Below, in pieces: positions 6,316 through 20,833 of a DNA stretch of 25,648 bases (positions within the stretch are counted from its first letter, which is position 1; each line of letters begins with the position of its first letter). Below the pieces are notes generated by a model that did no database searches, was not told the origin of the DNA, and saw nothing but the letters and a program-made list of their open reading frames with translations. Origin of the DNA: a virus. The translations under genes and the position numbers were made by a program. Location: positions 1 through 25,648 of the IMG/VR virus record IMGVR_UViG_3300032285_000298; one strand, written 5' to 3'.

Positions 6316-9050
6316 TGGCCGACATTCGTTCTCTTATTGCTGGTGACGAAGAACAAGCGTCGGCTGTTGCACCGGCTGCAAGAGCCGCTGCATCGCCTGT
6401 TCTCGTTAGACCGGCTCCCACAATTCAACGAACCACGCCCACAGCGGCACAAAGGGCAGAAGTTGAGGCAAACAATGCTGCTGACCTAAGAACAATTGCT
6501 GAATCCAAACGCCAACAAGCAACAGCACTTGCCCAACAAATGGCAGGCCATCTACAAAAAGGTGACACGGCTTCTGCGACCAATTTGGCCGCGCAAATAG
6601 GCGCACTTAATCGGGAAATTCAATCTATTGGCGGTCAACCGATTGTTATGCCAACCGCAATGCCTGCTGCTGCGCCCGTTGCGGCACCTGTTGCGCCTAT
6701 GGACGCTCGAACATTGATTGCCGGTGATGGGACAATTGCCCAACAAGCTACTCCGCCTCCACCGCTATCGCCTGTGGCAAAGCATTTCATGGATGCGTTT
6801 AACACCATACGAAGCAACAAGCCTGCATTTCTTGCATCTACGGCTGACGTTGTAGCAAATGCGCCATCTGCAATATTGAATCTTATTGGCACAGCATCTG
6901 GTCGTTTAACTGGTGAAACACCGGAAAAATCTCAGAAAATTGGCCAGGCTATATCATCTTTTGCAGCTAATCCATTTGGGCGACTTACAGGAACAACGGA
7001 AAGCCCGCAATATCAAGGATTGCAAAGTGCTGTGGCTGCACCTTTTGAATACGCAGCAAATAAAATTTCGCAAGTCACGGGAATGAATCCTGTTGATGCA
7101 AGTTTATTGGTTGGTGCTGGAACAATGGCATTGCCTGAAGCTACAAAGTTTGTGGCTAAAAATATTTCTGAAGCATCAGCATTACCAACTGTAAAAGCAG
7201 AAAAAACAACAACTGCTCAAGCAGAGCAACGCACTGCCGCAAATGCCGCTGCTGCTGACCAATTGCGTCAACAATTTGCTGCTAAACAAGCTGCTGCTCG
7301 GGCTGCAAAACAAGCTCAAGCACAACCCGCCGCACAAGCTGCTGAACGGCCTGCCGATTTTGGTGCTGCTTATGCTGCTTCCGCAGAGCCTCCATTGTTT
7401 AAGCCGCCGGTTGAATTGACTCCTGATGAAACTGGTGTTTATCGTGAAAAACCGCCGCTTGCATTGCCTGGCCCATTTGGTGAGGAACCTGTTGCACCCG
7501 TTGCGGCAGCAGAGGCCCAACCTGTTGCGGCAGAAATGCCTTCTTCTGTTGGTGCTGCTGGTGTAACCCATGAAAATGCTGTGCGTGCTGCGTTGGCTGA
7601 AGCGCGTCCAGATTTGCAAGCAAGTCTTGCTAATAGGGCGCCATCTGAAATTACGCCCGAAGAATTAAGCGCAATACAAATTCATAACAAATTTGCAAAA
7701 GTTGACCCTGACTTTATTCCTACTGAAGGACAAGCAACACAAGACATAGCTAAATTGTCTGATGAATATAATGATAAAGCAAAACCTGGATATGAAGATT
7801 TGCGGAAGAAATTTGAAGAACGAGACCCATATTTAATTAAAGGTTTCAATAATGTCAAAGAACAATTTGCGCCTGACAGCACTGGAGTTGGACAACAAGG
7901 CAAAGCTAATAATGTTTTGGAAAAAGTAAAAACAGAAAATGTTGATGTAGATACAAGAAACATTAAAAATGCTTACGAAAGTTTAAAAGATGAAAATGGA
8001 AAGTTTCCAATTGATTTAAGTCAAGTGGCTGCTAATGCGTTTGAAAAAATAAACGCAGAAGACAACATGGAATATTTGCCAACCAAAATTAAAAATAAAT
8101 TAGAAAAATATCAACAAGGTGGCGAAGCAAATTTAAATTTGTTTGAAAATTTATTGTCTAACATTGCTTCAGAGCAAAGAATGGCAAAACAAGCCGGTGA
8201 TGGAACAACAGTTCATGTTCTTGGATTGGTGCGAGACGCTGCTGAAGCATTGCCAATGAAAGGCGAAGACGCAATTAGATTTAAAGAAAAAGCAGACATT
8301 GCGAGACGTTTATTTAAAAATCAAAAAGATTTGTTAGACCCAGAAAAGCCAACATTTAACAAACTTTATTCATTAGCATATGAAGATAATAGAACGCCAC
8401 TTGAAATGGCAACGGGCAATGTAGCGCATCCAGCGGCAAAAAATTTCTTTGAAAATTTTGTCATAGGAAATAAGACTACATCGGCTGATTTAAGCCGCGC
8501 CATTGAGTTGGTTGGAAAAGATTCACCTGCTCATCACGAAATTATTTCGGGATTGGTAGATTATTTAAAACAAAAATCAGGCGTAATAGATGACAAAGGC
8601 AATGTAAGCCAAAAAACATTGCGAACAGAATTAAACAAACTTGGCCCTAATTTAGACTTGATTGCGGGTTCAGAAGTTGCTAACAGATTGCGAAATATTG
8701 GAGATGTAGCAGAATTGTCTGAACACGTTAGAAATCGTGGGGGCGGTAGCGCCAATGTATCGCAAACAGCTATTACTAACGAACGACAAGCATCATTGGA
8801 AGCAGTTAAAGATGTTGGAATAGGGCTTGCTGAAGGCGTAGCAAATTTAAAAACAGGCGGTCTTTACGGAACAGCAATGTCAGCATTAGCGCCGGTATTT
8901 AAAAATAGAAGAGACCGCGCTATACGAGCAGCAGAACTTGCAAAACAAGAAGAAGCTGCAGCGGCACAGCGCGCAAAAGTTACGCGGATAATTTCGCCTG
9001 CTGCTGGCATTCAGTTAAAAGATATGCTTCCACCAAATACCAAGGACTAA
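6315..9050 (+). CDS. Third and largest ejection-type internal virion protein
   Basis: 911 residues. The N-terminal 140 residues are Ala/Pro-rich and contain the short motif R(S/T)LIAGD twice, at about residues 5-11 and 132-138. A hydrophobic Ala/Gly-rich stretch covers about 170-300 (including DASLLVGAGTMALPEATKFV) and could interact with membrane. An Ala/Gln helix (about 300-345), a Pro-rich linker and a long charged helical region (about 430-850) follow. The last part is encoded by strikingly AT-rich codons (AAA, TTT, ATT, GAA) compared with the flanking genes. GGAG upstream and TAATG coupling support the start. By place and size it is the counterpart of P22 gp16 or gp20; no lytic transglycosylase motif was recognised. 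Confidence 0.7.
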   Translation: MADIRSLIAGDEEQASAVAPAARAAASPVLVRPAPTIQRTTPTAAQRAEVEANNAADLRTIAESKRQQATALAQQMAGHLQKGDTASATNLAAQIGALNREIQSIGGQPIVMPTAMPAAAPVAAPVAPMDARTLIAGDGTIAQQATPPPPLSPVAKHFMDAFNTIRSNKPAFLASTADVVANAPSAILNLIGTASGRLTGETPEKSQKIGQAISSFAANPFGRLTGTTESPQYQGLQSAVAAPFEYAANKISQVTGMNPVDASLLVGAGTMALPEATKFVAKNISEASALPTVKAEKTTTAQAEQRTAANAAAADQLRQQFAAKQAAARAAKQAQAQPAAQAAERPADFGAAYAASAEPPLFKPPVELTPDETGVYREKPPLALPGPFGEEPVAPVAAAEAQPVAAEMPSSVGAAGVTHENAVRAALAEARPDLQASLANRAPSEITPEELSAIQIHNKFAKVDPDFIPTEGQATQDIAKLSDEYNDKAKPGYEDLRKKFEERDPYLIKGFNNVKEQFAPDSTGVGQQGKANNVLEKVKTENVDVDTRNIKNAYESLKDENGKFPIDLSQVAANAFEKINAEDNMEYLPTKIKNKLEKYQQGGEANLNLFENLLSNIASEQRMAKQAGDGTTVHVLGLVRDAAEALPMKGEDAIRFKEKADIARRLFKNQKDLLDPEKPTFNKLYSLAYEDNRTPLEMATGNVAHPAAKNFFENFVIGNKTTSADLSRAIELVGKDSPAHHEIISGLVDYLKQKSGVIDDKGNVSQKTLRTELNKLGPNLDLIAGSEVANRLRNIGDVAELSEHVRNRGGGSANVSQTAITNERQASLEAVKDVGIGLAEGVANLKTGGLYGTAMSALAPVFKNRRDRAIRAAELAKQEEAAAAQRAKVTRIISPAAGIQLKDMLPPNTKD

Positions 9051-15085: not shown

Positions 15086-15174
15086 ACGCCACCTCCGACA
15101 AAGTAGCCGATGGTGTAAGCAATGATGGCAATGGCTGCCGTGGTAATGATGGAATCCCATGTTTCTTTAGTCAT
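15082..15174 (-). CDS. Micro membrane protein, 30 residues, first gene of leftward operon
   Basis: ATG 15174 with GAAAGG at good spacing. The stop overlaps the next start (ATGA). Residues about 8-26 form one membrane helix (SIITTAAIAIIAYTIGYFVG) with a Gly-rich end. It is the promoter-proximal leftward gene, a place where lambdoid phages carry early regulators. Its size and membrane nature give no clue to function. Confidence 0.6.
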   Translation of the reverse strand: MTKETWDSIITTAAIAIIAYTIGYFVGGGV

Positions 15175-15220
15175 AAAAACCTTTCTAGGGTCAAAACATC
15201 GCGTTGTTGCGATGACTGAA

Positions 15221-15238
15221 TGTTAAGCTAGATTAACA
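15221..15238. promoter_or_regulatory. Operator-like site 1
   Basis: TGTTAAGCTAGATTAACA: perfect TGTTAA/TTAACA inverted repeat with a 6-base centre. It matches site 2 at 15 of 18 positions in the same orientation. Probable binding site for the adjacent Cro-like protein; this is inferred from symmetry, repetition and position. Confidence 0.6.
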
Positions 15239-15295
15239 ACTATTCATCAATTAAAGTTGCGAAATGCTATAGGGCAAACCCTAATGGCAAAATCA

Positions 15296-15313
15296 TCGTA
15301 AGCTAGGTTAACA
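15296..15313. promoter_or_regulatory. Operator-like site 2
   Basis: TCGTAAGCTAGGTTAACA, sharing 15 of 18 positions with site 1 but with a less perfect left half. It lies 7 bases before the Cro-like start codon, where bound protein could block rightward transcription. Confidence 0.55.
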
Positions 15314-15320
15314 TCGGGAG

Positions 15321-15473
15321 ATGGACAAAGCAGAAGCAATCAAACGTGCAGGCACAGCCAGCGCACTGGCCCGAATCCTGGGCATCAGCAGTGCAGCCAT
15401 TTCCCAATGGAAGGCAATCCCGAAAGCTAGGCTGTGGCAGCTAAAAGCAATGCGGCCTGAGTGGTTTCAGTGA
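15321..15473 (+). CDS. Cro-like / YdaS-type repressor
   Basis: 50 residues, the size of Cro/YdaS-type DNA-binding proteins. The helix-turn-helix LARILGISSAAISQW (about residues 16-30) is followed by the characteristic IPKARLWQLKAM (about 33-44), matching the Cro arrangement of an Ile-Pro-x-x-Arg after the recognition helix. It probably binds the two operator-like sites just upstream and turns down one or both early promoters. GGGAG touches the ATG directly, which is too close for a normal Shine-Dalgarno, so translation may be leaderless-like or weak. No CI-type partner is encoded opposite it. Confidence 0.8.
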   Translation: MDKAEAIKRAGTASALARILGISSAAISQWKAIPKARLWQLKAMRPEWFQ

Positions 15474-15574
15474 AGACTTTTTTCTTCTATGCTTTGCTGG
15501 TGGTCTTGGCGGTTAGTCATGCGCCGTTTTGGGCGTGGATGATGTTTTTGTTCTTTTGCTACACAATGACTTAA
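15470..15574 (+). CDS. Micro membrane protein, 34 residues
   Basis: GTG start overlapping the Cro-like stop (GTGA), so translation would be coupled. The product is one hydrophobic segment (MKTFFFYALLVVLAVSHAPF, then WAWMMFLFFCYTMT), either a single membrane helix or two short ones. No separate Shine-Dalgarno is visible. The overlap and hydrophobic character make it credible, but short hydrophobic frames occur by chance. Confidence 0.45.
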   Translation: MKTFFFYALLVVLAVSHAPFWAWMMFLFFCYTMT

Positions 15575-15594
15575 ATTTATGTATAATCCAACCC
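15560..15594 (+). promoter_or_regulatory. Candidate promoter for the structured RNA
   Basis: Perfect TATAAT at 15582-15587; the best -35 is the weak TACACA (15560-15565) with a 16-base spacer. Expected start of transcription about 15594, immediately before the first hairpin of the candidate RNA. Confidence 0.4.
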
Positions 15595-15756
15595 GTCTAG
15601 AGTGGCATCTAGGCGATGAACAGATGGAAATAACCCCGCAGGGTACTGTGTGGTCTTGTCGTACGGCAAGCGAGTCTTTTGACCTTCTGTTCAATCGTCT
15701 TGCTGTTGCTCTCGCCAAGAGCCAAGACCACAGAGCATCTTGCGGGGTTTTTGCTT
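15594..15756 (+). ncRNA. Candidate structured phage RNA ending in a terminator-like U-run
   Basis: The region contains a 5' hairpin (GTCTAGA 15595-15601 with TCTAGGC 15608-15614), then a long closed structure. AACCCCGCA (15632-15640) pairs with TGCGGGGTT (15741-15749), 9 perfect pairs. Inside it TGTGGTCTTG (15649-15658) pairs with CAAGACCACA (15723-15732), 10 perfect pairs. Within that, GCGAG (15670-15674) can pair with CTCGC (15711-15715). The 3' arm runs into TTTTT and then TTTT, like an intrinsic terminator. With TATAAT just upstream this gives a unit of about 160 nt. An attenuator, a put-like antiterminator or a regulatory RNA are all possible. A 93-codon frame crosses it but has no Shine-Dalgarno. 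Confidence 0.45.
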
Positions 15757-15852
15757 TTGGACAACGCAATGCGGTACGTCGGTGGTTGCGTCTGAGATAC
15801 CCTGCTGCACGAGCAAGCCAAGGCAGGGAGCGTGGGCTAAGGATAGAGCGCG

Positions 15853-16002
15853 GTGGTTGAAATAGTCTGTCCAGTGCGATGCGATGACATGGCTCCGAAA
15901 AGCAAGTCACGGCACAGAGCGAACTTTGGTTTTGACCACGGTAAGGCTGTGCTTTGCTCCAACATTCACCAAAAAGCAATTAAGGAGATAGCAGATGTTT
16001 GA
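15853..16002 (+). CDS. Small cysteine-containing protein, 49 residues, GTG start
   Basis: A GTG start with AAGGA nine bases upstream opens a 49-residue frame that ends 8 bases inside the next gene. The product begins with VEIVCPVRCDDMAPKSK, continues SRHRANFGFDHGKAVLCSN and ends IHQKAIKEIADV: three cysteines plus histidines, possibly a small metal site. The short overlap with the next gene and the Shine-Dalgarno argue that it is real; an internal ATG at 15889 is a less supported alternative. No family recognised. Confidence 0.45.
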   Translation: MVEIVCPVRCDDMAPKSKSRHRANFGFDHGKAVLCSNIHQKAIKEIADV

Positions 16003-16360
16003 ATCAGGATTTGATAAGTTTTGGACTGCTTACCCAAAGACTCCGCGCAAGGGCGCAAAGTCTGAATGTAAAAAAAAATGGGTCAAGTTTTACTGCGAGA
16101 CTCAGGCCGACCAAATCATCAAACACATAGAGTGGATGAAAACCACTGAACAATGGCTCAAATCAGATGGCGCATTCATTCCCGCGCCTCTTGTCTACCT
16201 TAATCAACAACGCTGGGACGGGGCTGAAGTGCCTGATATGCCTGACAAAAAACGGGTGGATTCAGCACTGCAAAAGATTTATGAAGATGACAAAAAAGCC
16301 GCGCCTATGCCTGACCATATCCGTGAACGCTTGAACGAACTGCGAATTCGCCGTGTATGA
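15995..16360 (+). CDS. Replication-initiator-like protein (C-terminal module, FDKFWxAYPK type)
   Basis: 121 residues. The sequence FDKFWTAYPKTPRKGAKSEC, then a helical middle (QIIKHIEWMKTTEQWL), then GAFIPAPLVYLNQQRWDG, is the module found at the C-terminus of many phage replication initiators and replisome organisers, where it follows a winged helix. Here it stands alone as a short protein. AAGGAG eight bases upstream sets the ATG. Position early in the rightward operon fits a replication role, perhaps helping to recruit the host helicase. No helicase, helicase loader or polymerase is found in the window. Confidence 0.7.
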   Translation: MFESGFDKFWTAYPKTPRKGAKSECKKKWVKFYCETQADQIIKHIEWMKTTEQWLKSDGAFIPAPLVYLNQQRWDGAEVPDMPDKKRVDSALQKIYEDDKKAAPMPDHIRERLNELRIRRV

Positions 16361-20762: not shown

Positions 20763-20833
20763 GTTGGTGTAGCTCAGAAGGAGAGCGCCCTGCTGTGTCG
20801 GGGATGTTGGAGGTGCGAGTCCTCTTGCCAACA
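20763..20833 (+). tRNA. tRNA-like gene, anticodon GTG (His) by position, degenerate anticodon stem
   Basis: 71 bases fold as a cloverleaf. Acceptor GTTGGTG (20763-20769) pairs with TGCCAAC (20826-20832), seven pairs with two wobbles, discriminator A20833. The D-arm is GCTC/GAGC with a 7-base loop containing GG. The T-arm is GGAGG/CCTCT with loop TGCGAGT (T55 replaced by G). The anticodon loop CTGTGTC would give GTG at 20795-20797. The anticodon stem has only three pairs (CCCTG against GGGGA), base 37 is T, there is no extra 5' G as in true tRNA-His, and CCA is not encoded. Could be a decaying tRNA, a tRNA-like decoy, or a poor-scoring real tRNA. Confidence 0.6.

Follow-up and report, generated by a model that had tools for sequence, protein, structure and literature searches.

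What does a phage keep between its Cro-like gene and its replication gene, if not another gene? The window examined here (the whole analysed stretch of 25,648 nucleotides, virus record IMGVR_UViG_3300032285_000298) is a P22-like podovirus, whose portal protein shares 65% identity with those of two spring-water phage genomes and 43% with that of Rhodoferax phage P26218. Its left and right early genes diverge within 15160-15321, leaving no space there for a repressor of the cI type. An original prediction, made from the letters alone, had described a candidate structured RNA unit in front of the replication gene, and our comparisons confirmed 15594-15757 as a predicted non-coding RNA gene with a sigma-70-type promoter, a 5' hairpin and a long stem running into a U-tract. 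The features are as follows.

15321-15473, + strand: Cro-like gene just upstream (P22_Cro, 2e-11)
15560-15587, + strand: putative sigma-70-type promoter (-10 TATAAT at 15582-15587, weak -35; relatives carry TTGACA/TATAAT at the same place)
15594-15615, + strand: P1, 5' hairpin of 8 pairs with the invariant loop GTGGCA at 15602-15607 (98.6% of cells paired; two-sided change in 4 of 8 pairs)
15617-15624, + strand: pseudoknot strand x, in the hypervariable linker between P1 and P2 (linker-loop helix in relatives; covariation)
15633-15658, + strand: 5' arm of P2, the long stem (outer plus inner part; conserved G.G mismatch; 97.9% paired)
15663-15673, + strand: 5' arm of P3 (92.9% paired; two-sided change in 6 of 11 pairs)
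15686-15693, + strand: pseudoknot strand x', apical loop of P3, partner of 15617-15624 (linker-loop helix in relatives; covariation)
15695-15706, + strand: 3' arm of P3 (covariation on the alignment)
15708-15722, + strand: P4 hairpin, loop CGCCA (covariation on the alignment)
15723-15748, + strand: 3' arm of P2 (covariation on the alignment)
15748-15758, + strand: U-tract, intrinsic-terminator-like end (TTTTTGCTTTT), with a run of 5 or 6 T behind the stem's GGG (122 of 125 distinct copies)
15995-16360, + strand: replication-initiation-like gene downstream (phrog_9474, 1.9e-15)

Most of what the original prediction had reported could be read again directly: the upstream TATAAT, the nested structure within 15632-15749 with 9 perfect pairs outside (15632-15640/15741-15749) and 10 inside (15649-15658/15723-15732), and the 3' arm running into TTTTT (15748-15752, then GCTTTT). 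The 5' hairpin is also real, with 8 pairs instead of the 7 first counted, one of them G-T (15594-15601/15608-15615). A repeat search recovered the arms of the long stem (30 nt, 83% complementary). The claim that such pairing is unlikely by chance was borne out by a folding energy of -77.8 kcal/mol for 15594-15760 (167 nt; z -6.84), with 0 of 200 dinucleotide shuffles equally stable. Beyond these earlier points, the locus has a pseudoknot, the helices P3 and P4, possibly a contact between two loops and, immediately downstream, another structured module.

Could the locus nevertheless be a protein gene? A 93-aa frame spanning 15579-15860 retrieved 159 relatives as a tblastn query (80 kept), which is the point in its favor; however, the nucleotides shared by these relatives are translated in differing frames. 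Because a set retrieved in this way is biased toward the window frame, coding was tested on copies found by DNA pattern: among the matches listed, the frame is open in only 54 of 92 distinct copies, and no more than 17 of the 92 agree in length modulo 3. The frame has no match in Pfam or PHROG, and the base-pair changes are compensatory. On these grounds the protein gene was ruled out; it stands refuted on present data, with next to no probability left to it, and the coding-constraint check thus agrees with the earlier opinion that no credible gene explains the structure.

Relatives of this main type come from uncultivated phage contigs. The loci held 192 complete and 6 incomplete places; some contigs are duplicated, and the safer count is at least 131 distinct sequences, 125 of which were parsed as the full-length set. 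Since the promoter hexamers of the window by itself lack significance (1 against 1.0 expected), the case for a promoter is made by the upstream regions of the relatives. At least 5 of 6 consensus bases are present at -10 in 122 of 135 distinct upstreams and at -35 in 68 of 135 (best of spacings 15-19; chance expectation ~3), with a perfect TTGACA in 43 of 135. The -10 ends 4-7 nt ahead of the start of P1 in 131 of the 135, a spacing that puts the expected transcription start at the base of the 5' hairpin. At the opposite end, where 8-10 T fall within the next 12 nt in 125/125 distinct copies, a G+C-rich stem directly followed by a U-tract forms a putative intrinsic terminator, whose stem closes over ~100 nt. 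Conservation, promoter and covariation together speak for the regulatory RNA of ~160 nt, with its own promoter and terminator-like end, that had been suggested.

Neither Rfam 15 nor the cultured-phage collection contains this RNA family. Over the whole window Rfam 15 returned a tRNA elsewhere (a tRNA gene at 20763-20833; RF00005, 44.8 bits) and no family at the RNA element, and over 15150-16050, at E up to 5, two weak unrelated matches only. Blastn against INPHARED and PLSDB gave no match for the element, one search yielding short matches only (E >=0.2). The exact pattern had one match among the 84,980 species genomes of GTDB, L202, which was rejected as a chance hit, its surroundings being without the rest of the element; minus-strand matches of the model at the same place were discarded as mirror images of the stem. 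No description of the element was found in the open-access literature, and the passages on phage motifs in PMC2864571 hold none.

Covariation support for the structure is very strong. In an alignment of 63 copies, modelled as P1, P2, P3 and P4 plus the pseudoknot and the loop-loop contact, 95.8% of the cells are paired and 26 of 60 pairs show two-sided change; covariation reaches 0.301, whereas shuffled alignments give 0.146 (0/500 as high) and slid controls stay at or below 0.088. The long stem of the original prediction covaries as well, two-sided change being seen in 10 of the 24 P2 pairs of these copies. In the pseudoknot, where x pairs with x', the central columns show four Watson-Crick types each and the outermost two pairs are kept in only 38 and 42 of the 63 copies. 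A linker-loop helix was found in all 125 full-length copies (6 to 18 pairs, only one copy having as few as 6), and 92 distinct linker words occur among them. The mean score of x with its own x' is 10.6, against 6.0 for mismatched alleles, and 1.8% of the mismatched combinations reach the median own score. The P4 loop GCCA (15714-15717) is complementary to the P1 loop TGGC (15603-15606) in 63/63 copies, never varying; a P1-P4 kissing contact, which is without covariation support because both loops are invariant, is possible and only a suggestion.

How this helix changes can be seen by comparing distinct copies that share at least 95% identity over the upstream 60 nt (26 pairs). Averaged over these pairs, divergence is 0.022 upstream, 0.043 in P1, 0.072 for the 5' half that follows, 0.035 for the RNA's 3' half and 0.016 in the downstream 200 nt, and it amounts to 0.324 in x and 0.289 in x'. 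Linker divergence exceeds 0.3 in 19 of the 26 pairs; the linker segment as cut also takes in a small number of unpaired bases that separate x from P2 and that vary too. L170 and L188, for instance, are identical in P1 and in both the 5' and 3' halves and 1% different downstream, while x differs by 43% and x' by 44%; the window and L008 are identical over the upstream 60 and downstream 200 nt, with a linker 53% different. By another measure, the linkers of 26 pairs with the rest 96-98% identical show a median identity of 0.50, the same as in unrelated pairs, and 6 pairs with the rest >98% identical mostly share the allele. Judged by these comparisons, the x/x' helix is a lock that is hypervariable yet compensated; the pattern of swaps speaks for selection acting on which lock a phage carries, and it hints that the co-changing strands may be a switch telling self from non-self.

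The main rival is recombination around a purely structural helix, as frequent recombination between phages could also be the source of swapped alleles. Here the conserved parts of the small RNA would bind a protein of the host or the phage, or another RNA, and the pseudoknot would be a strut of free sequence. Such a role agrees with the invariant columns outside the pseudoknot, with the tolerance of many helix sequences (the 92 linker words) and with the finding that x and x' have no second target in their contigs, where matches elsewhere number 2 and 4 nine-mers against 4.9 and 4.9 in the control, that is, not above control. What neutral drift does not easily explain is an x/x' divergence more than 10 times that of the flanks in recently separated pairs, with both strands changing, and we consider the strut somewhat unlikely.

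Furthermore, related phages carry predicted RNAs, unrelated in sequence, with the same logic at the same place. The core of one class of downstream module (class A, below), used as an independent probe, gave 77 new places with enough upstream sequence among the matches listed; 71 of these 77 have the main motif, L203, L205 and L253 deviate from it slightly, and L206, L258 and L267 carry other 5' RNAs. With the rep protein alone as the probe, 67 of 80 loci were examined: the main motif is present in 38, the upstream region is too short in 4, and 25 differ. Among these 25, L347, L362 and L305 hold a variant of the main type or carry the main RNA at a greater distance upstream, L314 is of the L206 type (covariance model scores of 57.0 bits, and 54.8 bits for L206 itself), L353 is of the L285 type, eight belong to a second large type (type 3), eight more to type 4, in which x/x' match in seven and are broken in L328, and L358 and L363 are similar by eye. 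No such RNA lies within 900 nt in L360 (24 of the 25 differing regions were viewed, all but L359). L353, L358, L363 and L365 were missed by the automatic finder and read by eye. By chance, a long loop will match the upstream 45 nt over 7-8 bases not infrequently; single cases of other types therefore prove little, and it is the covarying sets that carry weight. L367 (MW202520), an annotated phage genome, shows by eye a promoter, an x and a terminator loop x' at ~6450-6680, behind an HTH gene; nothing similar was seen by eye in the annotated relative MW202674.

Type 3 is such a set. It has at least 92 distinct copies, 91 of the 92 with 7 Watson-Crick pairs between the 5' hairpin loop and the terminator loop, and among the matches listed 89 copies fall into five main alleles (41, 22, 21, 3 and 2). 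All 7 loop-loop pairs are present in 27/27 aligned copies, with two-sided change in three columns; covariation of the whole structure is 0.231 vs 0.128 (0/500), the number of further pair types lying below shuffles. Type 3 has no match among the cultured phages of INPHARED. The same allele behavior in an unrelated RNA counts against the strut described above.

The link between two hairpin loops in type 3 does, together with complementary strands of free sequence and largely orthogonal alleles, suit another reading, namely a self-assembling RNA in which x and x' pair between molecules and alleles avoid mixed assemblies. The phi29 pRNA multimerises through complementary loops. Like phi29 pRNA, GOLLD and ROOL, the present RNA is structured and linked to phages, and it too has complementary strands; unlike them, it differs in size, place and architecture, with no Rfam match to any of the three. 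The 5' linker and the terminator loop are also well placed for pairing within the chain, and the types seen have a terminator-like end. We hold self-assembly to be highly unlikely.

How, then, might such an RNA act? The structure, the pseudoknot, the promoter and terminator signatures, the position, the non-coding nature, the compensated lock and the same logic in unrelated sequences are all shown at the level of sequence, while transcript ends, termination, read-through, action in trans and immunity are inferred. We propose tentatively, at somewhat less than even odds, that the element is a self-specific attenuator or small RNA, or an immunity-type control, acting on the replication operon through x/x'; an attenuator, which the original prediction had also named, appears plausible and the best reading of the structured RNA. 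The sigma-70 promoter would yield an RNA of ~160 nt beginning at the base of the 5' hairpin, which would fold as a pseudoknotted intrinsic terminator, x near the 5' end pairing with x' in the loop of the terminator stem. The majority of transcripts would stop at the U-tract and become a stable small RNA, and read-through would provide the replication operon with its leader, the 3' module coming first and the rep gene after it. With x/x' as the specificity lock, pre-existing small RNA would recognise x or x' on new transcripts of the same allele, and this recognition would push them toward termination.

The order of promoter, x, terminator loop x', 3' module and rep stays constant while the sequences are exchanged, which fits termination control of the replication operon. 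Since x and x' lie in one molecule, their pairing may be purely intramolecular, and against self-specific control stand also the lack of a separate target above control in the own contigs and the broken x/x' of L328. As for the setting, a Cro-like gene lies directly upstream on the same strand at 87 of 140 loci, and ERF-type genes lie leftward on the other strand at 98 of 140 (many loci are incomplete). In 20 records of 22-36 kb (possibly incomplete; the window included), P22_Cro occurs in 13, and the search for tyrosine integrases (PF00589), serine recombinases (PF00239), S24 repressors (PF00717) and ParA-type ATPases (PF13614) was negative; therefore, classical prophage immunity is unlikely. 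A bolder form of the proposal, in which an RNA-only self/non-self locus with dozens of largely orthogonal x/x' types, exchanged like immunity regions and with its diversity selected among co-infecting relatives, controls the replication operon with no sign of lysogeny genes, we regard as rather unlikely.

The proposed control logic would be close to that of the P4 CI RNA, of IsrK and of loop pairing in the I-complex plasmids, although the window RNA belongs to none of these by the tests run. P4 CI RNA, the immunity RNA of the P4 satellite phage (seqA/seqB/seqC), blocks replication genes through premature termination. The window RNA and its relatives resemble it and c4 in their position as an untranslated leader of replication genes, in RNA complementarity and in the proposed logic of premature termination (excerpts of PMC4825925). 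In contrast, the window RNA and its relatives have no Rfam match to RF01695, the family listed for c4 RNA of P1/P7 in a row of PMC2864571; one segment there faces two leader sites (seqA and seqC), whereas here one complementary pair lies within one pseudoknotted RNA, with its own terminator, no lysogeny genes detected and very many alleles. IsrK of prophage Gifsy-1 is a small RNA with a promoter, an intrinsic terminator and a read-through messenger downstream (PMC4825925, in part). A putative promoter, a terminator-like end and a downstream gene are present here, the transcripts being predicted; there is no sequence or Rfam match, the neighbors of IsrK are an antirepressor and antQ, and the same excerpts describe no hypervariable lock for it. 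In the I-complex plasmids (IncK, IncB/O, ColIb), loop pairing sets replication and compatibility, and one loop base switches specificity (sections of PMC10724649). A separate antisense RNA is used there, whereas here both strands are in one RNA; a simple consensus scan found no minus-strand sigma-70-like promoter in 15200-16200.

Clustering the neighborhoods of the loci revealed nothing outstanding as a partner protein. By eye, these clusters gave no pointer either to a counter-defence RNA, a decoy or mimic that diversifies to evade recognition. A hypervariable segment within a conserved frame would suit such an RNA, but the variation sits in the paired lock while the exposed loops are conserved, and we give it a very slim chance. 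The family is large, structurally well supported and located at the start of an early operon before the replication genes. A compensated, wholesale change of a pseudoknot between near-identical leaders is unusual and makes a specificity role directly testable; if self-specific control is true, it would provide a large group of uncultivated phages with an RNA-based system of competition or copy control.

What follows the terminator bears on one more reading. The downstream features of the window are the following.

15753-15971, + strand: 3' structured module, class A (39 copies: 91.9% paired; covariation 0.480 vs 0.183 shuffled, 0/500)
15763-15769/15786-15792, 15800-15805/15823-15828, 15830-15832/15849-15851 and 15912-15917/15947-15952, + strand: class A helices (covariation)
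15841-15844/15869-15872, + strand: short pseudoknot of class A (outside the covariation count)
15898-15905, + strand: variable direct repeat, first copy, after GGCTCC (repeat comparison)
15972-15979, + strand: variable direct repeat, second copy, after TCACCA (repeat comparison)

The modules after the U-tract are structured and exchangeable; in the 140 distinct copies that extend far enough, they comprise 86 of class A, 25 of B, 10 of D, 6 of C and 2 of E; 11 are unassigned, 8 of which are class A variants by eye. The predicted energy of class A is unexceptional (z 0.70). A leader that works in cis by antitermination or by modifying RNA polymerase (put-like or EAR-like), in which the 3' modules act and the 5' RNA gates them, would agree with the position at the start of the rightward operon, with a terminator before the replication genes and with conserved, structured 3' modules. 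The original prediction had named a put-like element as well, and HK022 put and the present RNA do share an early position in a rightward operon laid out as in lambdoid phages. HK022 put is not known to have a promoter or terminator of its own. It measures ~70 nt, with two stem-loops, and is present in two copies, one on each early operon (passages of PMC9378689), as opposed to a pseudoknotted RNA of ~160 nt with its own promoter that occurs, as the class A core does, only once in the window. The put-like label is not supported, and with 3' modules of several unrelated kinds we find antitermination improbable; self-specific control by x/x' remains the reading we prefer.

The direct repeat, whose copies are 74 nt apart, varies between phages and matches within a phage, at least 7 nt being shared in 57 of 63 distinct cases. 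For that of class A, no complementary partner strand was found at a constant place; several AAAAGCAA-type repeats match TTGCTTTT behind the terminator. Depending on the phage, the place between terminator and rep gene is taken by one of at least five unrelated classes of module. The end of the class C module in L151 (3397-3470) matches the int-alpA RNA of Rfam (RF02996, 37.0 bits, cutoff 35.8). L197, a single copy, has from 6156 a long and very different 3' module with a T-arm-like stretch, which ends in the same GGCTCC/CACC direct-repeat arrangement as class A.
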